DNA of 64,000 bases from Aureitalea marina (GTDB taxonomy: Bacteria > Bacteroidota > Bacteroidia > Flavobacteriales > Flavobacteriaceae). Below the pieces are notes generated by a model, which made no database searches, was not told where the DNA came from, and was given only the letters and a program-made list of their open reading frames with translations. Shown here piece by piece: positions 3,997 through 46,010 of the stretch. The number at the start of each line of letters is the position of its first letter. Positions within the stretch are counted from its first letter, which is position 1. The position numbers and the translations under genes were made by a program. The stretch covers positions 248,001 through 312,000 of the forward strand of contig NZ_MQUB01000001.1 in assembly GCF_002943755.1 (NCBI RefSeq). The letters are read 5' to 3'.

Positions 3997-4974
3997 ATGA
4001 AGATCGTATCCCGCATAAAGGAGCCCATCGAAAAAGAAATGGAACTTTTTGATCAAAAGTTCTCCAAAACTGCCGCTTCCCATGTATCGCTTTTTAACCG
4101 GATCATGCATTATGTAGTGAACCGTAAGGGTAAGCAAATGCGACCCATGTTCGTGTTCCTTATTGCCAAAATGGTCGGGAAAGGACAAGTGAACGAACGT
4201 ACCTATCGCGGTGCCTCGGTCATCGAGCTTATCCATACAGCTACCCTGGTGCATGACGACGTTGTTGACGACAGTGACAGAAGGCGAGGATTTTTTTCGG
4301 TCAATGCCCTGTGGAAGAACAAGATTGCTGTCTTGGTCGGGGACTATTTATTGTCGCGGGGCCTCCTGTTGTCCATAGATAATGGGGATTTTGATCTCTT
4401 AAGGCAGATTTCGGTAGCGGTAAGAGAGATGAGTGAAGGAGAGTTGCTGCAGATCGAAAAGGCCCGACGGTTGGACATAACGGAAGAGGTCTACTTTAAT
4501 ATTATCCGCCAAAAAACAGCTACCCTTATTGCAGCCTGCTGTGCGATCGGGGCCGAATCTGTTCACGCGCCGGAGGAAGAAGTGGAAAGGATGAGAGAGT
4601 TCGGGTCACTTATCGGTATCGCTTTCCAGATCAAAGATGACCTGTTCGATTATGGGGAGGAGCAGATCGGGAAACCAACGGGCATCGATATAAAAGAACA
4701 GAAAATGACCTTGCCGCTTATCCATGTGCTCAATCAGGCTAAGCCGGATAAAAGAAGGTGGCTGATCAATTCCATCAAGAATCACAATAAGGACAAGAAA
4801 CGGGTCAAGGAGGTGATCAGTTATGTGAAGGAAGAGGGTGGTTTGGACTATGCCATTGGCCGAATGCGGGATTACCGGGAACGAGCTCTTGATATTCTGG
4901 GTCATTATCCAGATTCAGCATATAAGGATTCCTTGGAGTTGATGGTCAATTATGTGATCGACAGAAAAAAATAA
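3997..4974 (+). CDS. Polyprenyl diphosphate synthase (octaprenyl-type)
   Basis: This trans-prenyltransferase (325 residues) condenses isopentenyl diphosphate onto an allylic primer to make the long side chain of menaquinone. The first Asp-rich motif DDVVDD is near residue 87, followed by the RRR segment. The second motif DDLFDY is near residue 210. FQIKDDLFDY and the downstream GKPTGIDI fit the IspB/heptaprenyl synthase branch. Chain length cannot be read from the sequence. The ECF sigma-factor gene follows 75 bases later on the same strand. Confidence 0.88.
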   Translation: MKIVSRIKEPIEKEMELFDQKFSKTAASHVSLFNRIMHYVVNRKGKQMRPMFVFLIAKMVGKGQVNERTYRGASVIELIHTATLVHDDVVDDSDRRRGFFSVNALWKNKIAVLVGDYLLSRGLLLSIDNGDFDLLRQISVAVREMSEGELLQIEKARRLDITEEVYFNIIRQKTATLIAACCAIGAESVHAPEEEVERMREFGSLIGIAFQIKDDLFDYGEEQIGKPTGIDIKEQKMTLPLIHVLNQAKPDKRRWLINSIKNHNKDKKRVKEVISYVKEEGGLDYAIGRMRDYRERALDILGHYPDSAYKDSLELMVNYVIDRKK

Positions 4975-5049
4975 GTCTCCCGGGCAACCTTTCTGTTCCC
5001 ACCTGCGTCTTTCCAATAAAGCGTAGCCAGCTAAACAGTTAACAGCCGG

Positions 5050-5616
5050 ATGAAAGTAGTCTCTTTACATAAGAATTATGCCAAACTGATCGACCGGTCT
5101 CTGAAGGGTGACCGACGGGCTCAGCATCAGCTTTATGAGCTCTTTGCTCCTAAGATGTTGAGTGTATGCCGGCAATATGTAAAGAACATGGATCAAGCTG
5201 AAGAGGTCATGCTTTCCGGTTTCTTAAAAGTCTTTGTCAACCTGGGGAGTTTCAGGTCGGAGGGCAGTTTCGAAGGGTGGATCCGTCGCATCATGGTTAA
5301 CGAAGCCTTGTCTTTCTTGAGGAAACAGCAACGGCTAAAGTTCAGTGATCCGGAGGAGATGTCCAGTCACGAGTTGCCGGTGGCCTATGTGGAAAGCGAG
5401 TTGGAGGTAGAGGAGATCCAGCGGTTGATCGATCAACTGCCGGAAGGATACAAGACCGTTTTTGTGCTCTACGCTGTAGAAGGATATAAACACAGTGAAA
5501 TTGCCGAGTTGCTGCAGATTAGTGAAAGCACCTCCAAAACGCAGCTATTTAAGGCCAGGAAACTGTTGCAGTCCAAAGTGGATCAAGTAAATAAATTGAG
5601 TTATGGCTCCAATTAA
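5050..5616 (+). CDS. ECF-type RNA polymerase sigma factor
   Basis: The 188-residue protein has sigma region 2 (about residues 20-95, with the FEGWIRRIMVNEALSFLRK segment) and region 4 (about 120-175, LPEGYKTVFVLYAVEGY then a helix-turn-helix). Regions 1 and 3 are absent, as in extracytoplasmic-function sigma factors. The 14-base overlap with the next gene, a single-pass membrane protein, suggests that protein is its regulator. Promoter targets are unknown. Confidence 0.9.
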   Translation: MKVVSLHKNYAKLIDRSLKGDRRAQHQLYELFAPKMLSVCRQYVKNMDQAEEVMLSGFLKVFVNLGSFRSEGSFEGWIRRIMVNEALSFLRKQQRLKFSDPEEMSSHELPVAYVESELEVEEIQRLIDQLPEGYKTVFVLYAVEGYKHSEIAELLQISESTSKTQLFKARKLLQSKVDQVNKLSYGSN

Positions 5617-6376
5617 ATTTGAAGACAACATTCGGGAAAAATTGCAGAACCGAGAGATCGAGCCAAGTTCCCATGCCTGGAATAAGTTAGACCAGGCCTT
5701 GGGGAAGCCGCCAAAGCGGAGGCTTGCTCCAAGGACCTGGTGGGCGATCGCCGCTTCGGTGATGATTCTCATCTTTCTGGGTAGTTCACTCTTGCAAGAG
5801 GAGTCTCCGGGGGAAGAAATAGCAGAAGAGACCATTGAGCAACCGGAGAAGAGGTCAGAAGCAGTGCAATCTGTAATCCAGATCGCAGAAAAGGATGAGA
5901 CTTTTCTTGAATCCGAAACGGTCGTACCTGAAAAGGATGAAGCATTGGCGGTCGAGGAGACAGAGGCAGAACTGATCCAGGAAAAAGAGTACATCCAACA
6001 GCAAGTTTCGTCCAAACCGGAAGATGTGGTTGCCGTTATCCAACAAGAAGAGATTGCGCCTGAACCTACCTTAGTGGAAAGAACTGAAGAGACCTTCGTC
6101 AGTGGGAAGGTAGATGAGGTCGTAGCCCAGGTGCAGGCCTTGCAACTGGAGAACAAAGAGGTGAGTCCGGAAGAAGTAGAAGCCTTGCTAGATGCTGCTC
6201 AGCGCGAGATCGCTAACAGGAGGGTATTAGAGGAAGTCGGTGGTAAAGTGGATCCTATGGCTCTGCTCATGGATGTGGAGAGCGAGATGGAGCGAAGCTT
6301 CAGGGATAAGGTATTCGATGCTTTGGGCGACGGCTTCGATAAAGTCAGGACAGCCGTAGCCGAAAGAAACAACTAA
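5603..6376 (+). CDS. Single-pass membrane protein, putative anti-sigma factor of the adjacent ECF sigma
   Basis: The 257-residue protein has a short N-terminal cytoplasmic part (about residues 1-44, with FEDNIREKLQNREIEPSSHAW). One transmembrane segment follows at about 46-64 (WWAIAASVMILIFLGSSLL). The remaining 190 residues are very rich in Glu and Val. This layout, and the 14-base overlap with the sigma gene, fit a Bacteroidota-type anti-sigma or membrane regulator. No zinc (HxxxCxxC) anti-sigma motif is present, so the role is inferred from position and topology. Confidence 0.6.
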   Translation: MAPIKFEDNIREKLQNREIEPSSHAWNKLDQALGKPPKRRLAPRTWWAIAASVMILIFLGSSLLQEESPGEEIAEETIEQPEKRSEAVQSVIQIAEKDETFLESETVVPEKDEALAVEETEAELIQEKEYIQQQVSSKPEDVVAVIQQEEIAPEPTLVERTEETFVSGKVDEVVAQVQALQLENKEVSPEEVEALLDAAQREIANRRVLEEVGGKVDPMALLMDVESEMERSFRDKVFDALGDGFDKVRTAVAERNN

Positions 6377-6420
6377 ACATTCATCAATAAGACCCCCGCG
6401 GGTCATAAATCACGAACATC

Positions 6421-7470
6421 ATGAGATTAATTACTATTTACGCCGCCATGGTGGCCTGGGTTATTTTTGCCCCAACTCTCCTGGCACAGGAGACTACAAA
6501 CACCAATAGTGTGGAGGTGTTAAAGTCTGCCCGTCAAGACATCATCAATGAAGAAAAGAATGCACTTAAGCGCGACGTAGAGGCGATCAACAAGCAATTG
6601 GAAGAGGGCATTATAACAGAAGAGGAAGCCGAAAAGAAAAAGTTGGAGGCAGCGGAGGTCAGGGCCCTAAACATAGAGAACCGAGTGGCCATCATCGATA
6701 ACAAGATCGCTTTGATAGAGCGTAATCCGGACGGAAATTATGCGGATGATGACGACAGTATCAACATTTCAATTTTTTCTGAAGAAAGCGTTCTTGATAT
6801 CACTACCAATCACCGTCGACGCAAATACGACAGAAGGACCACCAGTCACCTGGTCTTTGCCTTTGGACTCAATAACGTCATTACCGAAGGTGAATCCCTG
6901 GACGATTCAGAGTTCAAAGTAGGTGGAAGCCGGTTTGCTGAATTGGGATGGGCTTGGAGAACCCGGGTATTCAAGAACAGCAACTGGCTACGGATCAAAT
7001 ATGGATTTTCCTTTGTCTGGAATGGATTGAAGCCTATCGATAACCAGTACTATGTGGATACTGGGGACCAAACTGAACTACAGGTATTCCCAGAGAACCT
7101 GAATAAGTCCAAATTTCGGATCGATAACCTGGTCTTCCCGGTTCATTTTGAAGTAGGACCGTCCAGGAAGATAGAACGGGAGGACTATTTTCGATATTCC
7201 ACGAGGAGAAAGTTCAAATTTGGATTTGGGGGCTATGCCGGTTTCAAGCTCGGTACCAGGCAAAAACTGAAGTACGAAATGAACGGGGAGAAGATCAAAG
7301 AAAAGCAAAAAGGAAGCTTCAACACCAACAATTTCATATACGGTATCAGTGGATATATGGGATGGTCCGGAATCTCCCTTTATTGCAAATACGACCTGAA
7401 TCCGATATTTAAGGATAATCCGGTTGAGCAGCGAAACATCTCGCTGGGGCTCAGACTGGACGTAGATTAA
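6421..7470 (+). CDS. Outer-membrane beta-barrel protein with N-terminal coiled coil
   Basis: The 349-residue protein has a signal peptide (residues 1-22, ending LLAQ). A charged helical stretch at about 30-100 (AEKKKLEAAEVRA) is probably a periplasmic coiled coil. The rest is rich in alternating aromatic and polar strands and ends in LGLRLDVD, as in PorT-like outer-membrane barrels. It follows the sigma/membrane-regulator pair by 44 bases and is likely in the same operon, so it may be a sensor or target of that system. A terminator follows. Confidence 0.65.
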   Translation: MRLITIYAAMVAWVIFAPTLLAQETTNTNSVEVLKSARQDIINEEKNALKRDVEAINKQLEEGIITEEEAEKKKLEAAEVRALNIENRVAIIDNKIALIERNPDGNYADDDDSINISIFSEESVLDITTNHRRRKYDRRTTSHLVFAFGLNNVITEGESLDDSEFKVGGSRFAELGWAWRTRVFKNSNWLRIKYGFSFVWNGLKPIDNQYYVDTGDQTELQVFPENLNKSKFRIDNLVFPVHFEVGPSRKIEREDYFRYSTRRKFKFGFGGYAGFKLGTRQKLKYEMNGEKIKEKQKGSFNTNNFIYGISGYMGWSGISLYCKYDLNPIFKDNPVEQRNISLGLRLDVD

Positions 7471-7492
7471 CACTAACTTTAATCATCAAAAC

Positions 7493-7520
7493 AGACCTGC
7501 CAAGAGCGGGTCTTTTTTTT
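7493..7520 (+). terminator. Terminator after the sigma/regulator/OMP operon
   Basis: The stem AGACCTGC (7493-7500) pairs with GCGGGTCT (7506-7513) and is followed by eight T. It closes the operon ahead of dnaG. Confidence 0.85.
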
Positions 7521-7570
7521 ATAATTGTGCTACATTTACAGAGGTCCACGTTGGGCCTCTTTTCCAATCC

Positions 7571-9541
7571 ATGATCAGCCGTCAGACCATAGATGCCGTA
7601 TTTGATGCCGCCCGGGTAGAGGAGGTCATTGGTGATTTTGTCCAATTGAAGAAATCCGGTAGTAACTTCAAAGGTCTGAGTCCATTTACGGACGAGCGAA
7701 CGCCCAGTTTCATGGTCTCGCCGGTAAAGCAGATCTGGAAAGATTTTTCCAGTGGTAAGGGAGGAAATGTGGTGTCTTTTGTGATGGAGCACGAGCATTT
7801 CAGTTATCCCGAGGCCATCCGATACCTAGCCAGGAAATACGGTATAGAGATAGAGGAGACCCAGCAAACCGACGAGCAGAAGGAGGAGGCATCTGAAAAA
7901 GAGAGCCTCTACCTGATAAGTGAATTTGCCAGAGATTATTTTCATCGGGTCTTGTTGGAGGAGGAAGAAGGAAAGGCCATAGGAGGGACCTACTTCAAAG
8001 AAAGAGGGTTCACCGCAGATACGATAGAAAAGTTTGCTCTTGGTTATTCTCCTCAGCAGTGGGATGCGTTCACCCTTGCTGCAAAGGAGAAAGGGTATCA
8101 GATTGACCTGTTAGAGAAGACCGGACTAACCATCGTCCGGGAGGACAAGCAATTTGATCGGTTCAAAGGGCGGGTCATGTTCCCCATTCGGAGCATGAGT
8201 GGCCGCGTCTTGGGATTTGGGGGCCGAATATTATCCAGCGAGAAAAAGGCTGCCAAGTACCTGAACTCCCCGGAAAGTCCGATCTATCAAAAGAGCAAGG
8301 TACTCTATGGGATCTACCAGGCCAAGCAGGCCATTGCGAAACAGGATAATTGTTACCTGGTAGAAGGATATACCGATGTGATCCAAATGAATCAGCGTGG
8401 ACTGGAGCATGTGGTGGCTTCTTCGGGTACGGCACTTACTGTAGAGCAGATCCGTCTGGTCCGTCGACTAACCAATAATATCACCTTGTTGTTTGACGGA
8501 GATGCGGCAGGGATTAGAGCATCCCTAAGGGGGGTAGACCTCATCCTGGAACAAGGCATGAATGTGCGAATCTGTACATTCCCTGAAGGAGAGGATCCGG
8601 ATAGTTTTGCAAGGAACAACACCCTGGATCAACTACAGGATTATCTCAGTGCGAATACCCAGGATTTCATACGGTTCAAGACTTCCTTGTTGTTACAGGA
8701 TTCTGGGAACGATCCGCATAAACGGGGACAGACCATAAGAGACATTGTCCAAAGCATCTCCAAAGTACCTGATGCAATCCAGCGTGAAGTCTATATCCAG
8801 GAATGTGCCCGGCTGATGGATATCAGCGAAGAGGTGCTCTTCAACTCCCTGGCCCAGCAACTGGAGAAGAGCAGGCGTGATGCCAAAAAGGACAGATCCA
8901 GGCAAGAGGTAACTCAGCCCATGGAGGTCATTGCAGATAGGACCCCTGTAACAGCAAAGGTGGATGGTCTCTTTGAATTGGAGCGCAAACTGATCGAGTT
9001 GCTCTTACTGTACGGACACAAGCAAGAGGAGTTTGAAGACTTGGTCTTGGAATCGGACGCGGAAGGTGAGATCTCCTTCAGGCCGGATATTGTCGAAGCC
9101 AAAGTCTATGAGAAGATCTACCTGGATCTTCAAGAGGACGAGATCGAATTCACCAATCTGGGATTCCGCAAGTTGTACTCCCACATCATCGATTCACTGA
9201 ATCAGGATCAGGAAATTCAGACGGAGGTGTTCGTGAGCCGCTTACCACAGGAGTTAGCAATCTTGGCCAGTGACCTGCTTATGGAAGAGGAAAAACACAA
9301 ATTGCATGCCTGGCAGCGGAAGGAGATCTTTGTACGGGACAAGGACCACCAGATTGGTCAGGTGGTTTCAGAGACCATTCTCAATTTGAGGAGGCACCTG
9401 GTCAGTTTAAAGATCGATGAATTATCTACTGAGATCAAGGAGTCTGACGATGAGAATCAAAAGCAATCCAATATGCAGGATATAATCGATTATATCATGC
9501 TGAAAAAAGTACTTTCCGAAAAATTGAACCGGGTGGTGTGA
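7571..9541 (+). CDS. dnaG: DNA primase DnaG (zinc-ribbon ligands replaced)
   Basis: DnaG makes RNA primers at the replication fork. The 656-residue protein has the N-terminal CHC2-type domain (1-100), the primase core and TOPRIM domain (about 120-350, with VEGYTDVI and LLFDGDAAGIRA) and a C-terminal helicase-binding region. In the N-terminal domain the usual four zinc ligands (CPFH and CFGC) are Ser37, Thr40, Asp58 and Ser61, so zinc cannot bind there in the usual way; the surrounding fold residues (PSFMVSP, GKGGNVVSFVM) are kept. The catalytic acidic residues are present. It is convergent with the regulator gene at 9549. Confidence 0.93.
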   Translation: MISRQTIDAVFDAARVEEVIGDFVQLKKSGSNFKGLSPFTDERTPSFMVSPVKQIWKDFSSGKGGNVVSFVMEHEHFSYPEAIRYLARKYGIEIEETQQTDEQKEEASEKESLYLISEFARDYFHRVLLEEEEGKAIGGTYFKERGFTADTIEKFALGYSPQQWDAFTLAAKEKGYQIDLLEKTGLTIVREDKQFDRFKGRVMFPIRSMSGRVLGFGGRILSSEKKAAKYLNSPESPIYQKSKVLYGIYQAKQAIAKQDNCYLVEGYTDVIQMNQRGLEHVVASSGTALTVEQIRLVRRLTNNITLLFDGDAAGIRASLRGVDLILEQGMNVRICTFPEGEDPDSFARNNTLDQLQDYLSANTQDFIRFKTSLLLQDSGNDPHKRGQTIRDIVQSISKVPDAIQREVYIQECARLMDISEEVLFNSLAQQLEKSRRDAKKDRSRQEVTQPMEVIADRTPVTAKVDGLFELERKLIELLLLYGHKQEEFEDLVLESDAEGEISFRPDIVEAKVYEKIYLDLQEDEIEFTNLGFRKLYSHIIDSLNQDQEIQTEVFVSRLPQELAILASDLLMEEEKHKLHAWQRKEIFVRDKDHQIGQVVSETILNLRRHLVSLKIDELSTEIKESDDENQKQSNMQDIIDYIMLKKVLSEKLNRVV

Positions 9542-9548
9542 TCAGGTA

Positions 9549-10181
9549 TCACCCAAACTGAAACATCCTGGACTGGTGGATAAGATCGGCCAGGTTGTCT
9601 ACTTTGAGTTTCTTGAGCAGTCGCGTCTTATAAGTACTGACGGTTTTCTCGTTGATGTTAAGCGCGTTGGCAATGTCCTTGTTGCGCTTGCCGCGAGAGA
9701 GTAAGTTTAGAACTTCGATCTCACGGGAGGAAAGCTTTTTGTAACGGCTCAAGGCACTGCTTTCGCCCACATTCCTGCTGGTGAATGTGGAAGTAAGCTC
9801 TTCATTTAAGAAGATACCTCCTTTCGCTATTTGCTTTAAAGCTTTCATAAAGATCTTGGTAGATGCCGTTTTAGGCACATACCCAGCCGCTCCTGATTTA
9901 ATCGATCTCAGCGCATAGATCTCTTCAGGGTGTGTAGAGAAGATAAGGACCCTAGTCTCCGGATATTGAGACTTGATCGCCCGAAGAGCATTGATCCCAT
10001 TGATCTGCGGCATGTCGATCTCCATTATCAGGATATCGGGTTTCAGCTCTTCAAGACTTTTATATAACTCGTTACCGTTATTAGCGCGCCCAATGATTGA
10101 AAAATTTTCATTCTTTTTGAGCATACAGGATATACCCTTTCGGGTAATCGGGTGGTGATCCGCAATAACGATGTTTTTCAT
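9549..10181 (-). CDS. NarL/FixJ-type response regulator with Glu at the phospho-acceptor site
   Basis: The 210-residue protein has a receiver domain (1-120) and a LuxR-type helix-turn-helix (about 145-205, LSSREIEVLNLLSRG and KTVSTYKTRLLKKL). The receiver keeps Asp8, the Ser/Thr site (FST) and the Lys of VPKT. Position 54, normally the phosphorylated Asp, is Glu (IMEIDMP, codon GAG at 10020-10022), and the second acidic-pocket residue is His (ADHHP). It may therefore act without phosphorylation. No histidine kinase is adjacent. It is a transcriptional regulator by family; the targets are unknown. Confidence 0.85.
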   Translation of the reverse strand: MKNIVIADHHPITRKGISCMLKKNENFSIIGRANNGNELYKSLEELKPDILIMEIDMPQINGINALRAIKSQYPETRVLIFSTHPEEIYALRSIKSGAAGYVPKTASTKIFMKALKQIAKGGIFLNEELTSTFTSRNVGESSALSRYKKLSSREIEVLNLLSRGKRNKDIANALNINEKTVSTYKTRLLKKLKVDNLADLIHQSRMFQFG

Positions 10182-10344
10182 TCTAAATGGTCCTTAAAAG
10201 ACACTTAAAACAAATGCGGTTGTGATAAGTGTGAGGTTTTTGTAATACTTCTACTACAAATCAAATCTATAAAAAAGGCTAAAAAACAGAAAGCAATTTC
10301 GTTAAACGTCAATAATACTCGACAAATAACAGAAGCCCGCCAGA

Positions 10345-11136
10345 TTATTCCTTCAAATTTGTAGGAATTTCGCACACAGGTATTGGGACCATTTTGTGCT
10401 GGTTGGCGCGGTTAAGTCGTTGATATATAAGATATACCTCTTTTTGCCTGCCTTCAAAGGCTTCCGGGCCCTTCCCAGAATCCTGCATTTTCATGGCCCA
10501 CTCCAATTCGTCGTAGGATGCCCCGATCTGGTCTTCGTCCGTCCGGTTATCGCCCCAAAGCCCATCTGTTGGAGCGGCTTGTTGAATGTCTTTATTGATA
10601 CCTAGCAATCGGGCAATTTCATACACTTCGCTCTTCATCAGGTCGGCTATCGGGCTGAGGTCTACACCACCATCTCCATACTTGGTGAAGAAGCCAACAC
10701 CAAAGTCTTCTACCTTATTTCCTGTCCCGGCAACAAGGTATCCGTTAAGGGCCGCGAAATAATAGAGAGTGGTCATACGGAGCCTGGCACGCGTATTGGC
10801 CAAGGCCATAAACCTGGACTCTTCTTCGGCTACTTCGGGCAGAGAATCGATGAGGCTGTCAAAGACCGGGGTCAGGTTGACCTGGATCATTCTTACCTTG
10901 GGGTGTTGCTCTTTAAGCCAATTGATATGATCGATGGCCCGGCTCACTTGAGAAGGAGCCTGGTGGATTGGCATTTCCAGACAAAGCACTTCCATTCCGG
11001 TCAAGGCACAGAGGGTAGAAGTGACCGCAGAGTCGATACCTCCGCTCACTCCTACAACAAAGCCTTTTATCCCAGCGTTTTCAGCATAGGATCTCATCCA
11101 TTCCACAATGTGATCGACTACTTTCTGTGTTTGCAT
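10345..11136 (-). CDS. nadE: NH3-dependent NAD+ synthetase
   Basis: NadE converts deamido-NAD+ to NAD+ using ATP and ammonia. The 263-residue length shows the short form with no glutaminase domain. The PP-loop motif SGGIDSAV is at about residues 30-38, and AGTGNKVEDFGVGFFTKYGDGG forms the substrate and metal site. nadE is divergent from gldB across about 100 bases, the arrangement known from other flavobacteria. Confidence 0.93.
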   Translation of the reverse strand: MQTQKVVDHIVEWMRSYAENAGIKGFVVGVSGGIDSAVTSTLCALTGMEVLCLEMPIHQAPSQVSRAIDHINWLKEQHPKVRMIQVNLTPVFDSLIDSLPEVAEEESRFMALANTRARLRMTTLYYFAALNGYLVAGTGNKVEDFGVGFFTKYGDGGVDLSPIADLMKSEVYEIARLLGINKDIQQAAPTDGLWGDNRTDEDQIGASYDELEWAMKMQDSGKGPEAFEGRQKEVYLIYQRLNRANQHKMVPIPVCEIPTNLKE

Positions 11137-11165
11137 TTTTGTCCGGTTTTAACCGATTATAGTAA

Positions 11166-11174
11166 TACCTTTGT
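11166..11174 (+). promoter_or_regulatory. -7 box TACCTTTGT for gldB-gldC
   Basis: The sequence matches TANNTTTG and lies about 65 bases before the GTG start of gldB. No TTG is at the usual upstream spacing. The nearby palindrome CGGTTTTAACCG (about 11144-11155) lies between the divergent nadE and gldB starts and could be an operator. Confidence 0.4.
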
Positions 11175-11238
11175 CAAAAAATTTTCGGCTTCTCAAAATT
11201 AATAAATTCTCTGTTCGTTTGTCAGATAAATCTGAACT

Positions 11239-12201
11239 GTGAAAAATAGTTGGAATATCCTATTTCTGAGTTTCGTTCTCTTGCTTTCATGTGCCGATGA
11301 AAATCGATTAGAGGAAGAGATCTCGGCCATCCCTGTAGAGGTCGATCTAACCCGCTTCGAGCTATTGTTTGACCAGGCGAATGAGGCCACCTTACCCGGC
11401 CTGAAACGGCAATATCCTCAGTTCTTTCCGGAGCAATACGGAGATAGTCTTTGGGTGAGTATGATCAATGATACCTTACAAAAAGAGCTGCGGACGGAAG
11501 TTTTAAGTCAATACCCTCCAGGGGGTGGTTTAACAGTAGAGCTGGAGGATTTCTATCGGCATTTAGCTTATTATTTTCCAAATTTCGATGTTCCCCAGGT
11601 ATTCACCATTACCACAGATGTAGATTATCAGAACCCCATCGTTTTGACGGATCAGATGCTGGTGTTGGGTCTGGATAATTACCTTGGGGAGGAACATCCT
11701 TTTTACCAGAATATTCCTCGCTATGTTGTTCAGAATATGAGACCTGGGCGGATTAAAGCTGACCTTGCTCAAATCTATGCACAGCGGGTGGTGCCTCCAC
11801 CATCGGACAGAACTTTGTTGGGTCAGATGATCTATCACGGGAAGGTCCTTTATATTAAGTCGCTATTGTTGCCAGGCGTATCCGATAATACCCTTATTGG
11901 TTATTTGCCCGAGCAACTGCAATGGGCCCAGGAGAACGAGGTAGAGATCTGGAGGTACTTTATCGAAAAGGAGATGCTCTATCTGACCGACCCTAAATTG
12001 TCACCCAGGTTCATCAATCCGGCTCCGTTTTCCAAATTCTATTTGGAGATAGACAACGAATCCCCTGGTATGATAGGCCGTTATATTGGCTGGCAAATGG
12101 TCGGAGCATATGTTGCAAGACAAGATGGGGATTTGGAGCAACTACTGAGTAGCGATTACAAAACCATTTACGAACAATCCAAATACAAACCCAGCAAATA
12201 A
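11239..12201 (+). CDS. gldB: Gliding motility lipoprotein GldB
   Basis: The 320-residue protein begins with a lipoprotein signal peptide (lipobox LLSC, Cys18) and reads with GTG as the start. Its overall sequence (VDLTRFELLFD near residue 38, then LTDQMLVLGLDNYLG) matches GldB, a lipoprotein needed for gliding and linked to type IX secretion in Flavobacterium. It overlaps gldC by one base, and nadE is next door, which supports the assignment. Confidence 0.9.
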   Translation: MKNSWNILFLSFVLLLSCADENRLEEEISAIPVEVDLTRFELLFDQANEATLPGLKRQYPQFFPEQYGDSLWVSMINDTLQKELRTEVLSQYPPGGGLTVELEDFYRHLAYYFPNFDVPQVFTITTDVDYQNPIVLTDQMLVLGLDNYLGEEHPFYQNIPRYVVQNMRPGRIKADLAQIYAQRVVPPPSDRTLLGQMIYHGKVLYIKSLLLPGVSDNTLIGYLPEQLQWAQENEVEIWRYFIEKEMLYLTDPKLSPRFINPAPFSKFYLEIDNESPGMIGRYIGWQMVGAYVARQDGDLEQLLSSDYKTIYEQSKYKPSK

Positions 12202-30000: not shown

Positions 30001-30453
30001 ATGAGTCTTCAAAAGCAGATAATGGACGCCATGAAAACGGCTATGAAAGAGAAAAATGCGGTGGCATTGGAATCTCTTCGTGCGGTTAAATCGGCCATAC
30101 TGCTAGCCCAGACAGAAAGCGGTGCCAAAGCCGAATTGTCCGAGGATCAGGAAATGAAGATCTTGCAAAAACTGGTCAAGCAACGCAAGGATAGTGCTGC
30201 TATCTTTACAGAACAGGGCAGGGATGACCTGGCTCAACCAGAATTGGCCCAGGCTGCTGTGATCGAACAGTTCTTACCCGAGCAATTGGGAGAGGAGGAG
30301 ATCGCAGCTGTCGTTGACCAGATCATTGCCCAGACCGGTGCCTCCAGTATGAAGGACATGGGAAAGGTAATGGGAATGGCCTCCGGAAAATTAGCCGGAA
30401 AAGCCGATGGCAAGACCATTTCGACCATAGTAAAGCAAAGACTCAGTTCTTAA
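30001..30453 (+). CDS. GatB/YqeY domain-containing protein
   Basis: The 150-residue protein is a stand-alone YqeY-type domain, related to the C-terminal tail of the GatB amidotransferase subunit. Typical segments are MKTAMKEKNAVALESLRAVKSAI, EEIAAVVDQII and MGMASGKLAGKADGK. Its role is not settled in the family: it may bind tRNA or aid amidotransferase function. A tRNA gene follows 7 bases after its stop, so both may share a transcript. The position right after ftsZ is common in flavobacteria. Confidence 0.88.
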   Translation: MSLQKQIMDAMKTAMKEKNAVALESLRAVKSAILLAQTESGAKAELSEDQEMKILQKLVKQRKDSAAIFTEQGRDDLAQPELAQAAVIEQFLPEQLGEEEIAAVVDQIIAQTGASSMKDMGKVMGMASGKLAGKADGKTISTIVKQRLSS

Positions 30454-30460
30454 CCATATT

Positions 30461-30533
30461 GGCCGCGTAGTTCAACTGGATAGAATATCAGATTTCGGCT
30501 CTGAGGGTTGGGGTTCGAATCCTCCCGCGGTCA
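30461..30533 (+). tRNA. tRNA-Arg, anticodon TCG
   Basis: The acceptor stem is GGCCGCG with CGCGGTC, the anticodon stem TCAGA with TCTGA, and the loop TTTCGGC carries anticodon TCG (30495-30497), reading CGA. The T loop is TTCGAAT. No CCA is encoded. At 73 bases it is one short. The T stem (30509-30513 with 30521-30525) begins with an unpaired T-C; one more G in the GGGG run at 30510-30513 would restore a full stem and a normal variable loop. Confidence 0.92.
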
Positions 30534-30543
30534 CATCAAGCGC

Positions 30544-30580
30544 AAAAACCTGCAACGATAGTTGCGGGTTTTTTGTTTTT
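30544..30580 (+). terminator. Terminator after tRNA-Arg
   Basis: The stem AACCTGCAAC (30547-30556) pairs with GTTGCGGGTT (30561-30570, one G-U pair) around a four-base loop and is followed by TTTTG and a second T run. It sits 11 bases after the tRNA. Confidence 0.85.
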
Positions 30581-30583
30581 AAA

Positions 30584-30612
30584 GGCCACAGAAAACTTGT
30601 TTTCGAGTGGCC
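30584..30612. repeat. Hairpin next to the duplicated intergenic repeat
   Basis: GGCCAC and GTGGCC close a stem whose inner part GAAAAC/GTTTTC leaves only a two-base loop, with a small bulge between the two halves. It immediately precedes the first copy of the 90-bp repeat and may be part of the same element. It is not followed by a T run. Confidence 0.55.
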
Positions 30613-30701
30613 GCAAAAACAAAAAACTCAAGGCCTATGGCCTTGCAGGTTTTTGCATTTGCAGCGGTGAGCGTTTTGAGGATCACGAGTAATCCTTCTA
30701 A
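30613..30701. repeat. Intergenic structured repeat, copy A
   Basis: This 89-bp copy shares with copy B (30799-30889) an A-rich lead, a hairpin, then GCAG(G/C), GCA(T/C)TTGCAGC and an almost identical block ending GAGTAATCCTTCTAA. The hairpin here is CAAGGCC-TAT-GGCCTTG (30629-30645), a perfect 7-bp stem. No open frame explains the region. Confidence 0.75.
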
Positions 30702-30734
30702 CTTACTTTGCAGCAGCGAGCGCAGCAAGTAACC

Positions 30735-30779
30735 CGTTCTCGATACAATTTTGCTTCGCAAAACCACTCGAACTGACGT
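30735..30779. repeat. Extragenic palindromic element
   Basis: Inside is the palindrome TTTTGCTTCGCAAAA, flanked by GTTCTCGATAC on the left and ACTCGAACTGACG on the right, which are partly complementary. The arrangement resembles a short intergenic repeat I have seen in other flavobacterial genomes. It lies between the two structured repeats. Confidence 0.55.
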
Positions 30780-30798
30780 AAAGCTTGCTTTTAGGGGT

Positions 30799-30889
30799 GC
30801 AAGAAACAAAAAAGCACATGGTGTTCCACCATGCAGCTTTTGCACTTGCAGCAGTGAGCGTTTTGAGGATCACGGAGTAATCCTTCTAA
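30799..30889. repeat. Intergenic structured repeat, copy B
   Basis: This is the second copy of the 90-bp unit. Its hairpin is CATGGTG-TTC-CACCATG (30817-30833), a perfect 7-bp stem in the same place as in copy A but with a wholly different sequence, while the flanks are nearly identical. In the rest of 30534-30955 I see no gene, only these repeats and the terminator. Confidence 0.75.
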
Positions 30890-30955
30890 AATTAAGAGAA
30901 TGACGTTCGGTCCGGATCACCTAGAAATCCTTCCAGCTTACTTCACTCCATACAC

Positions 30956-31462
30956 TCACTCAAACGCCATATAAGTAAGGGGAATCATAACCCATTTATC
31001 AGAAGGCTTAAATAATGCAGACCGCATTTTTTGTTCGGTTCCGTCTTCGTTTAAGTATTGGATAGCGTATAATTTGATGTCTTTCTTAAGTTGATTAGCC
31101 AATACCAGATACTCTCTGGGAAAGCCGTTAGTTACTCCTTGTTGAAGGTCATTTTTGGAGACTACCAATATTTTCAGCTCGGCATCTTCGGTCACAGGCT
31201 TTACTATATTGGGCGGGATCTTATCTGGTTCACCCCATTTCAGGTTGCAGTATGCCATCACGCGGGCAACAGCTATTTCCCCCTCAAAAATCTGCCTGAT
31301 ATCATTCGCAGATGGCTTCAAGGTGAGCAAAATTTCATGATTTTGATCGGCCTTTAATTGATCGACAAGCCCGACTAGCTCAGCCATTTCATCCTGCTTG
31401 TCTTCCTGGCAAGAAATAAATAAGCAAGTAATTAGTCCTAAGGTGAGTGTTATTCTGTTCAT
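30956..31462 (-). CDS. Hypothetical lipoprotein
   Basis: The 168-residue protein has a lipoprotein signal (lipobox FISC, Cys18), followed by an acidic helix and then a mixed domain (EIAVARVMAYCNLKWGEPDKIP). I do not recognise a family. It is the last of a string of minus-strand genes and starts 13 bases after the end of the next gene, so the two are probably one operon. Confidence 0.65.
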   Translation of the reverse strand: MNRITLTLGLITCLFISCQEDKQDEMAELVGLVDQLKADQNHEILLTLKPSANDIRQIFEGEIAVARVMAYCNLKWGEPDKIPPNIVKPVTEDAELKILVVSKNDLQQGVTNGFPREYLVLANQLKKDIKLYAIQYLNEDGTEQKMRSALFKPSDKWVMIPLTYMAFE

Positions 31463-31474
31463 GATAATGTTTCT

Positions 31475-32035
31475 CTAATACTTATATATATCAAATGCCT
31501 GCTCATAGACCTCACCATCTTCATGCTGTCTGAGGATAACAATCTTTTTCTGTTCAGTATCGATCTTTTTGATACGATTACCTCCGGCATAGAAATCGAA
31601 ACTTTCCTGGGTACTTAACATGAGGCCATTGTTGTAACTCCAAATACCATTGTGCATTTTGGTGACAAAGACTTGGCCCTCTTCACTTAAGTCTACCAAG
31701 TAAAGCAATTCTCGGATAACAGTATAAACACTTGCAAAATCATTCTGATCCTTAAACACCTGGGTAACTACCACAAATTGTTTTTCGTCTTCATCCTCAA
31801 AGATTTCAAAGAAGTGATCATAGATCTGCTTGAGTGGAGGTTGGAACATCAACTTACCGCTTGAATATACATCTCCATCTTTGATTTTTACAGTATGGTC
31901 AGGATAATACCGACCTTCCTTTTTGTAACTCTTTTCTACATTTTCATGAATATAGTAGAGGTTTTGACCTGTAAGGTGCTGACCGAAAATTGTTATTAGA
32001 AAGACGAGAAGAAAGTTCCTATTATTTCTAGTCAT
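31475..32035 (-). CDS. Hypothetical secreted protein
   Basis: From the ATG at 32035 (186 residues) the protein begins with a signal peptide (MTRNNRNFLLVFLITIFGQ, cleavage near TGQ). The frame extends upstream to 32074 but the extra residues would spoil the signal. The mature part is rich in charged and aromatic residues (IKDGDVYSSGKLMF, FEIFEDEDEKQF). It has no recognisable motif. It may be a periplasmic or outer-membrane-associated protein of the accessory block. Confidence 0.6.
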   Translation of the reverse strand: MTRNNRNFLLVFLITIFGQHLTGQNLYYIHENVEKSYKKEGRYYPDHTVKIKDGDVYSSGKLMFQPPLKQIYDHFFEIFEDEDEKQFVVVTQVFKDQNDFASVYTVIRELLYLVDLSEEGQVFVTKMHNGIWSYNNGLMLSTQESFDFYAGGNRIKKIDTEQKKIVILRQHEDGEVYEQAFDIYKY

Positions 32036-32063
32036 GCATACATATTTTGAGATACTGATGGTG

Positions 32064-32354
32064 TCATGATCCAATAAAAAGGGATATACTAAAGAAAAAC
32101 CCGATAATTATTTCGATAATATTCAGAATCAGTTTGTTTTTCCGCAAAAGACATAGTAAAAAATCTACACCAACCAAGACCAGGCCAACAAAACCAAGTC
32201 CGACCATGTACACTACACCCCAACCCTCTCCTTTGGATAGTATGTCCCACCTGATTATGGTAAAGATAAAAAGCACAAGGTAGTAAATGACCATATAGAT
32301 CTTTAGAAAACTAAGTTGAAGTGCCGGTTTTAGATTCATAATCTGTCTATTCAT
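32064..32354 (-). CDS. Small membrane protein, three predicted spans
   Basis: The 96-residue protein has three hydrophobic segments, at about 17-33, 48-69 and 76-94. It resembles no family I know. A second in-frame ATG at 32339 (MNLKPAL) is an alternative start. It lies directly upstream of the secreted protein gene on the same strand. Confidence 0.5.
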   Translation of the reverse strand: MNRQIMNLKPALQLSFLKIYMVIYYLVLFIFTIIRWDILSKGEGWGVVYMVGLGFVGLVLVGVDFLLCLLRKNKLILNIIEIIIGFFFSISLFIGS

Positions 32355-45648: not shown

Positions 45649-45918
45649 TTATTTACGCAGTCCAAGCTCTTTAACGATCGCACGGTAGCGCATGATGTCC
45701 TTTTTCATAAGGTAATCAAGCAACGCACGACGCTTACCTACCAGCTTAACCAAAGAACGCTCAGTGTTGAAGTCCTTGTGGTTTTGCTTCAGGTGCTTGG
45801 TCAGGTGTTCGATACGGTGAGTGAATAGTGCGATTTGACCCTCGGCCGAACCAGTATCCGATTCTCCCTTACCGTGTTTTTTAAAGATCTCCTTTTTTAC
45901 TTCTGGTGATAAATACAT
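45649..45918 (-). CDS. rpsO: 30S ribosomal protein S15
   Basis: The 89-residue protein is S15, which binds 16S rRNA in the 30S platform (LSPEVKKEIFKKHGKGESDTGSAEGQIALFTHRI, then LVGKRRALLDYL). The open frame runs upstream to 46035, but the ATG at 45918 gives the exact family start (MYLSPEV). A -7 box lies 57 bases upstream, within a 9-bp inverted repeat. rpsO-pnp is the classic gene order, separated here by a terminator. Confidence 0.97.
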   Translation of the reverse strand: MYLSPEVKKEIFKKHGKGESDTGSAEGQIALFTHRIEHLTKHLKQNHKDFNTERSLVKLVGKRRALLDYLMKKDIMRYRAIVKELGLRK

Positions 45919-45967
45919 GCCAATATTATTTAAATGATTTTTATGTATCCGATAACCCTCGTGGTAA

Positions 45968-46010
45968 TCGAGCGGCAAAGATACGTAAAATTCATTATTG
46001 AGCCGCTCGA
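45968..46010 (-). promoter_or_regulatory. rpsO promoter enclosed by a 9-bp inverted repeat
   Basis: TATCTTTGC on the minus strand (45975-45983) matches TANNTTTGC. It lies between TCGAGCGGC (45968-45976) and GCCGCTCGA (46002-46010), a perfect 9-bp inverted repeat with a 25-base spacer, so the -7 box overlaps one arm. No TTG is at the right spacing. The arms could be an operator. Confidence 0.55.

Follow-up and report, generated by a model that had tools for sequence, protein, structure and literature searches.

Palindromic elements anchored at tRNA 3′ ends, often in tandem arrays, in Aureitalea marina and other Flavobacteriaceae

A complete and a truncated element behind tRNA-Arg(tcg)

Directly behind a tRNA-Arg(tcg) gene of Aureitalea marina lies what is probably an array of non-autonomous palindromic integrative elements, which contain no ORF of their own, occupy tRNA 3′ ends and leave the tRNA whole. 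We analyzed a 64,000-nt stretch of the genome (the window; contig NZ_MQUB01000001.1, positions 248,001 to 312,000). The genome comprises 3.07 Mb in 4 contigs, and its best named ftsZ relatives are Flavobacteriaceae, the first being Aureitalea sp. L0-47 (75%). Sequence comparison among genomes indicates that such elements lie on the same strand as a tRNA or tmRNA gene, vary in presence, are followed by a repeat of the tRNA end in a minority of cases and maintain their pairing, the arms being complementary over an outer stem and mostly to tRNA nt 63, less often to nt 64. As far as the literature searched shows, this family of tRNA-anchored palindromic mini-elements is undescribed, no description having been found in titles and abstract openings among the matches listed.

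The original prediction placed two 90-nt intergenic copies here, just after a tRNA, with alike flanks and perfect 7-bp hairpins of differing stems. Both hairpins are present, CAAGGCC-TAT-GGCCTTG in copy 1 (Table 1) and CATGGTG-TTC-CACCATG in copy 2 (30817-30833). The copies share blocks of 37 nt (95%) and 15 nt (100%), a two-copy pattern well beyond chance, and the tRNA is tRNA-Arg(tcg). The predicted limits, however, cut the element in two, leaving its left half (tRNA 3′ end, trailer, terminator and centre hairpin; 30518-30612) upstream. The unit is a palindromic element, often in tandem arrays, that is anchored at a tRNA and has the tRNA gene as its left end; in the window there is a complete element and a truncated one. 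Element 1 is a larger palindrome of 178 nt that starts inside the tRNA gene and runs through the tRNA 3′ end, the trailer, the terminator, two more hairpins and a mirrored arm to the core GGATCAC..GTAATCC. Because positions 30542-30656 form a single inverted repeat (76% over 115 nt), the tRNA's own terminator makes up the left half of the palindrome and copy 1 the right half. The second hairpin together with the A tract forms a terminator-like site on the minus strand, and the core resembles a T-arm hairpin and carries a C.A mismatch. When a covariance model was trained on 30 elements, including copy 1 but not copy 2, it matched copy 2 at 30757-30883 (46.7 bits; E 1.5e-9, a rough value from a short calibration).

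The array is preceded by an ORF at 30001-30453, upstream of the tRNA, and followed by a minus-strand ORF at 30956-31462. The only ORF of at least 60 aa over both copies (88 aa, minus strand, 30579-30845) spans copy 1 and part of copy 2 and was judged fortuitous. Both element copies (30542-30890) can also be read as minus-strand intrinsic terminators; two ORFs, at 30956-31462 and 31475-32074, lie on this strand. Between the copies, at 30736-30778, lies a 43-nt hairpin-forming repeat, GTTCTCGATACAATTTTGCTTCGCAAAACCACTCGAACTGAC, which also occurs elsewhere in the genome, partly clustered at C1:2061502-2061717 and 2065682-2065854.

Table 1. Parts of the array in the window (all on the plus strand; A2 is the alignment of 30 elements)
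Feature	Position	Strand	Remark
tRNA-Arg(tcg)	30461..30534	+	right arm complementary to its nt 59-64
Element left end, tRNA 3′ part from nt 58, AATCCTCCCGCGGTCAC	30518-30534	+	
Complete element 1, tRNA nt 58 to core end	30518..30695	+	covariance model 136.7 bits, 1-176 of 176
Trailer ATCAAGC after the tRNA, common to many relatives	30535..30541	+	alignment A2
Covarying outer stem, left half, GCAAAAACC	30542..30550	+	A2 columns 25-31 = 30542-30548
Hairpin resembling an intrinsic terminator, followed by a T tract, in the reading direction of the tRNA	30544..30573	+	
Centre hairpin GGCCAC..AAAACTTGTTTT..GTGGCC	30584..30612	+	sequence and fold
Second hairpin CAAGGCC/GGCCTTG (originally predicted hairpin, copy 1)	30629..30645	+	
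Outer stem, right half, GGTTTTTGC	30648..30656	+	A2 columns 153-159 = 30650-30656
Conserved right-end motif ATTTGCAG..GTGAGCG	30657..30673	+	
Right arm GA (complements tRNA nt 63-64) and core GGATCACGAGTAATCC	30678..30695	+	
Truncated element 2: centre hairpin, A tract, CATGGTG/CACCATG hairpin, right half of outer stem, right motif	30780..30883	+	
Element 2 core GGATCACGGAGTAATCC	30867-30883	+	

Across genomes, the parts follow one order along the tRNA strand: the tRNA 3′ part AATCCNN.., a trailer (ATCAAGC, TACAAGC, GAATAAAT or others), the left outer stem, a terminator hairpin with T tract, the centre hairpin, an A tract, the second hairpin, the right outer stem, the right-end motif (ATTTGCAG.AG.GAG or, alternatively, ATTTTCAAAGCGGAG), the right arm and the core. 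By eye, the ends in alignment A2 read AATCC..GGATCA..TAATCC. Elements measure about 80-190 nt, the shorter variants being without some inner hairpins, and a median of 141 nt separates the tRNA from the core.

Distribution in Flavobacteriaceae and beyond

The 15-nt block GAGTAATCCTTCTAA has two exact copies in its own genome, both in the window, and at up to 2 mismatches it was found at 5 places versus 6 for the control; a dispersed own-genome repeat was thus rejected. The shared block of the original prediction has no third exact copy in the genome, but more elements lie behind tRNA genes in relatives. A blastn search with copy 2 gave matches in 19 of 299 family genomes, several of which were, by eye, unrelated chance stretches; the better ones lay directly behind tRNA genes (Arg-tcg, Arg-tct, Val-gac) and near a Ser/Pro/Arg cluster.

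A strict core pattern, GGATCAC-N(2-6)-GTAATCC, was present in 75 of 397 family genomes, compared with 11 for the reversed control pattern (control counted by hand), often tandemly repeated, as with the eight copies at 69-bp intervals in G078. Among 121 distinct strict cores, at loci from part of the 75 genomes, 89 lay within 850 nt downstream of a tRNA or tmRNA on the same strand, and none had an opposite-strand tRNA at its locus. tmRNA genes, which share the T-arm with tRNAs, lay upstream twice (L246 of G315 at 455 nt; L270 of G365 at 264 nt). The 32 cores with no tRNA include several that look by eye like coding sequence or chance, others being arrays away from any tRNA, and four such arrays begin with a truncated tRNA end (L252, L259, L269 and L272). 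Some tRNA-less hits seemingly due to coding sequence or chance, judged by eye or from a recurring core (L169, L171, L174, L180, L183, L187, L188, L194, L199, L228, L266 and L277), were retained among the 121.

In a sample of the phylum, the strict core was found in 41 of 395 genomes, and 2 of the 24 non-family loci scanned for tRNAs had one nearby (L290 and L302, both tRNA-Ser); G438, outside the family, carries arrays. The covariance model, which includes the tRNA end and was run in the phylum with stricter filters that lose weak matches, hit 30 of 395 genomes, 17 in the family and 13 outside it. In L368 (G456, from another family of the class), the core is followed by an exact repeat of the tRNA-Arg end and then by a second element. 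In L371 (G538), the core lies behind tRNA-Ser with nt 63 matched. The arm in L370 does not match the adjoining tRNA, and several weak partial model matches lie away from any tRNA. Among the genomes tabulated, most members of genus g128, the commonest family genus sampled, had no match. The element family is real and widespread, with members in numerous Flavobacteriaceae and in a small number of genomes elsewhere in the phylum. Separately, tandem units behind tRNA-Glu in L378 (G618) repeat a longer tRNA piece, with an insert in the T-loop, and are possibly a related phenomenon in another family.

Element ends tend to match the adjoining tRNA

The ends of the elements tend to match the individual tRNA next to them, judging from the sequences. 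We considered 82 cores, after a nearest-tRNA rule had assigned 6 of 88 to a nearer tRNA. In 70 of these, the base that precedes GG is complementary to tRNA nt 63 (mean of 29.9 with swapped tRNAs), and in 51 the following base is complementary to nt 64 (swapped mean 24.7); the match fails in 12 and 31 cores, respectively, and at nt 65 there is no signal (6/82 versus 9.8). The C.A mismatch of the core is kept in 81/82, and 81/82 show complementarity, with four pair types, at the pair two positions inward, figures that are inflated because many loci were chosen by the strict core.

The tendency also appears within a single genome. Among the 37 distinct tRNAs of A. marina, ten gave formal matches and eight were accepted as element-bearing (Arg-tcg, Arg-acg, Ala-ggc, Met-cat, Phe, Pro-tgg, Val-gac and Val-tac); the Asn and Gly matches look like chance and were left uncounted, and two further places, Arg-tct and a Leu tRNA, came from the covariance model. 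The arms track even unusual T-loops (Ala GGAC, Met GGAC and Phe GGAA).

Covariation of the outer stem and folding

Among 30 elements that share one boundary type, of which three come from A. marina, the 7-bp outer stem was paired at 97.1% of positions, compared with 64.7% after shuffling and 41-59% when one half was slid along the other (maximum 58.6%), even though the halves lie 90-105 nt apart (about 98). These elements, alignment A2, are 30 of 34 candidates chosen from the 82 by length and right-end motif; L128, L173, L242 and L182, with other trailer types or odd, were excluded. Double changes occurred at 7 of 7 pairs, in 57 cells. Aligning relatives' copies bore out covariation, and pairing preserved amid changing sequence, as originally predicted for the hairpin, proved general over the 30 elements, although in a unit that is not a free-standing 90-nt RNA; the predicted hairpin itself was compared in the two window copies only. 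RNAalifold on A2 returned the outer stem and one small helix only; a full cloverleaf was not recovered.

As single-stranded DNA of either strand, 70 of 71 elements had folds over 2 sd better than those of shuffled versions (median z of -6.9 and -5.9, 60 shuffles each; the 11 of 82 elements above 230 nt were left out). The ends were closed in the best fold of 50/71 top strands and 43/71 bottom strands. The window element, taken from tRNA nt 59 to GGAT, had z of -8.8 (top) and -7.6 (bottom) and folds closed, with several arms. Selection on structure had been read from the two hairpins. The conserved pairing is real, and it may have arisen from selection on RNA, from selection on folded DNA or from correction of the palindrome by template switching.

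Insertion versus palindrome formation in place

The strongest rival to integration, although we consider it unlikely, is that the palindromes arose in situ: replication would have switched templates at the tRNA and its terminator and left an inverted partial copy, further switches and tandem duplication would have kept the arms equal and multiplied the right half, and no site-specific mobility would be involved. This accounts well for a right arm that tracks the local tRNA, unusual T-loops included, for the covariation of the outer stem and for tandem repeats of the right half, such as the eight copies in G078. It does not readily account for the occurrence of the same right-end motifs (ATTTGCAG.AG.GAG) and the same core (GGATCAC..GTAATCC) at different tRNAs and in different genomes, nor for the core loop, which is not part of the tRNA.

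Repeats of the tRNA end bear on the same question. A copy of the tRNA 3′ end (at least 9/10 nt) follows the core in 10 of 88 cases, or 10 of 82 by the nearest-tRNA rule, against a null mean of 0.8 and a maximum of 4 in 2000. The repeated piece runs from nt 58/59 to the end of the tRNA; the tRNA stays whole, and its trailer and terminator lie inside the element. Exact repeats followed by another element or by a terminator-like flank, as in L072, where what looks like a simple terminator hairpin comes next, argue against formation in situ. Since 78 of the 88 first cores have no good copy of the tRNA end behind them, we infer integration of most elements from position and form only.

One pair, L060 and L061, was the only clear case of a new insertion among the genomes compared. 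In L061 an older element lies directly behind the tRNA; in L060 an additional element and an exact tRNA copy of 16 nt stand between the two. The two copies of the older element agree in 129/133 columns, although the ftsZ genes of the two genomes are 86% identical. An element added between a tRNA and an older element points to insertion rather than to a palindrome made on the spot. No single element came to notice at two kinds of tRNA in the loci read.

Presence at orthologous tRNAs and a possible role in RNA

Presence was also compared at one orthologous gene, tRNA-Arg(tcg), in a set not selected by the strict core (80 named ftsZ loci, 59 with the tRNA in the stretch and 56 long enough). A match at nt 63 together with a core was found in 21 of 56, versus a shuffled mean of 2.2 and maximum of 6. 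The form GGATCA..TAATCC was read in 10 of the 21, the others having a bulged A or decayed cores, and at least 3 look like chance or the wrong site (L074, L080 and L097). Conversely, at least 6 of the 35 loci that failed carry an element by eye (L056, L057, L095, L101, L104 and L111), and many loci plainly have a single ordinary terminator and no element.

This variation weighs against the view, which we hold to be quite unlikely, that the fold is under selection because the sequences serve as a functional RNA or act in cis on tRNA transcription, whether as a double or bidirectional terminator or as a signal for processing. Such a role would fit the terminator-like sites found on each strand (30544-30573 on the plus strand, 30645-30629 and 30835-30815 on the minus strand), the conserved pairing and the strong minus-strand RNA folds of 97-nt window pieces (z of -5.0 and -3.9). 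However, many orthologous tRNAs make do with an ordinary single terminator (35/56 failing, at least 6 of which carry the element), the copies form arrays, some separated from the tRNA by islands, and in a scan of the window, 7 relatives' loci and another 20 loci, no Rfam family other than tRNAs and, in the window, an unrelated S15 leader exceeded its gathering score. No Rfam family exceeded it on the copies, and a known Rfam RNA was rejected. The S15-Flavobacteria ribosomal protein leader lies elsewhere in the window, at 45916-45983 on the minus strand (68.7 bits).

Islands at the same tRNA genes

We examined the surroundings of arrays in eight stretches (2.7-19.8 kb) from eight genomes, listing ORFs in all and reading the junctions in six. 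Islands with tyrosine integrases separate the arrays from the tRNAs in L281, which is the same tRNA-Arg(tcg) locus as in the window, and in L282, where the ORF starts suggest type I restriction-modification cargo. In L278, a type I restriction-modification island (4598-11645, by Pfam) splits the array. In L284, a shortened element and then an exact repeat precede a 13-kb island that encodes a reverse transcriptase, beyond which lies the longer version of the element.

Integrating islands leave tRNA 3′-end repeats, according to an excerpt of one published account (PMC9897764), and tyrosine-integrase islands do occur at the same tRNAs (L281, L282), but a reading of the elements as att sites left behind by ordinary tRNA-targeting islands or prophages is disfavoured and very improbable, given that many elements are complete, palindromic and mutually similar, that they are found on the tRNA side of islands (L278, L284) and also on the far side (L278, L281, L282, L284), and that the island-side junctions in L281, L282 and L284 show the tRNA end without a GGATCAC core.

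Comparison with known elements and a possible mechanism

The 3′ ends of tRNA genes are a classic docking site for mobile DNA, and to our knowledge the other users of this site carry genes; the present elements, by contrast, consist of little more than secondary structure and measure <200 nt. Mobile elements with a tyrosine integrase that target tRNAs (ICEs, prophages and satellites) likewise leave the tRNA intact and repeat its 3′ end on the far side, as a minority of the present elements do, but these are only ~80-190 nt long, encode no integrase, are palindromic throughout and usually have a right arm complementary to the tRNA. Casposons insert at tRNA 3′ ends with target duplication and so resemble the elements in target and duplication, whereas Cas1 is absent from 24 of 25 element genomes. 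MITEs and REP/BIME sequences are also short, non-coding, hairpin-forming and multi-copy, but the present elements are bound to tRNAs, have tRNA-matched ends and showed no autonomous partner in the few stretches read. The distal repeats of E. coli tyrT, with rtT RNA, are similarly tandem, lie behind a tRNA gene and carry a piece of the tRNA end; they are, however, not known to be palindromic insertion elements, and no Rfam family exceeded its gathering score on the present copies.

The attC sites of integrons are imperfect palindromes of variable sequence and conserved pairing, with an unpaired position near the base of the fold. The elements share the imperfect palindrome, the variable sequence with a conserved fold and the arrays beside a fixed anchor. 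They differ from integron cassettes in having no gene, in an anchor, the T-loop half of the tRNA, that changes from tRNA to tRNA, and in ends of the form AATCC/GGAT; by eye in A2, the attC core boxes RYYYAAC and GTTRRRY are not present at the element ends.

For the elements as integrative units, movement would proceed by site-specific recombination within the tRNA gene, in its T-loop half, catalyzed by a recombinase acting in trans and not encoded by the element. The substrate would be the folded strand, a hairpin or cloverleaf closed by ATCCNN/NNGGAT. Selection for the fold, template-switch correction against the tRNA, or both, may keep the arms matched, and such correction would make each right arm fit its own host tRNA. 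Partial repeats of the right half, for example copy 2 in the window, could stem from later tandem duplication. A bolder proposal, which we put forward tentatively and regard as unlikely, is that of a system across Bacteroidota that follows the logic of integrons, recombining folded strands without a gene of its own, docking at the T-loop half of many tRNA and tmRNA genes, having its ends rewritten to complement each tRNA and growing arrays of palindromic cassettes.

If integrative, the elements would show just how short an element of this type can be. They place new terminators behind tRNA genes, and the filled and empty orthologous tRNAs constitute a comparative dataset on whether covariation in DNA palindromes comes from selection or from template-switch correction.

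Search for a mobilizing enzyme

No mobilizing enzyme, circle or episomal form was found; plasmids, phages and viral contigs, searched with one query each, gave no element match; and no autonomous partner with the same ends and an integrase was seen in the eight array stretches, in which 10 proteins were scanned. The integron integrase was rejected as the mobilizer, none of 25 element genomes exceeding the cut-off of TIGR02249, with weaker matches in 25/25. Cas1 or a casposase was likewise rejected, being absent from 24 of the 25 genomes, the A. marina genome included, and present in G438 only. An integron-like recombinase of ~390 aa is present in 249/397 family genomes at E <= 1e-40; it is not enriched among genomes with a tRNA-adjacent element, of which 19 of 38 have it (hand count; the query came from one of the 38, G078).

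The A. marina genome itself encodes a ~390-aa tyrosine recombinase that is similar to integron integrases but scores below the curated cut-off (L345, 2306-3481; G000:C1:2929000-2935000), and similar ~390-aa recombinases were found in L349, L351, L352, L353 and L356. By eye, the recombinase is followed by short ORFs separated by palindromic sites CAACAACG...CCGTTGTGnnnAATT, with variants in L351 and L352, and the loci look like integron-type cassette arrays. In L353, one cassette-like ORF is seemingly present twice.
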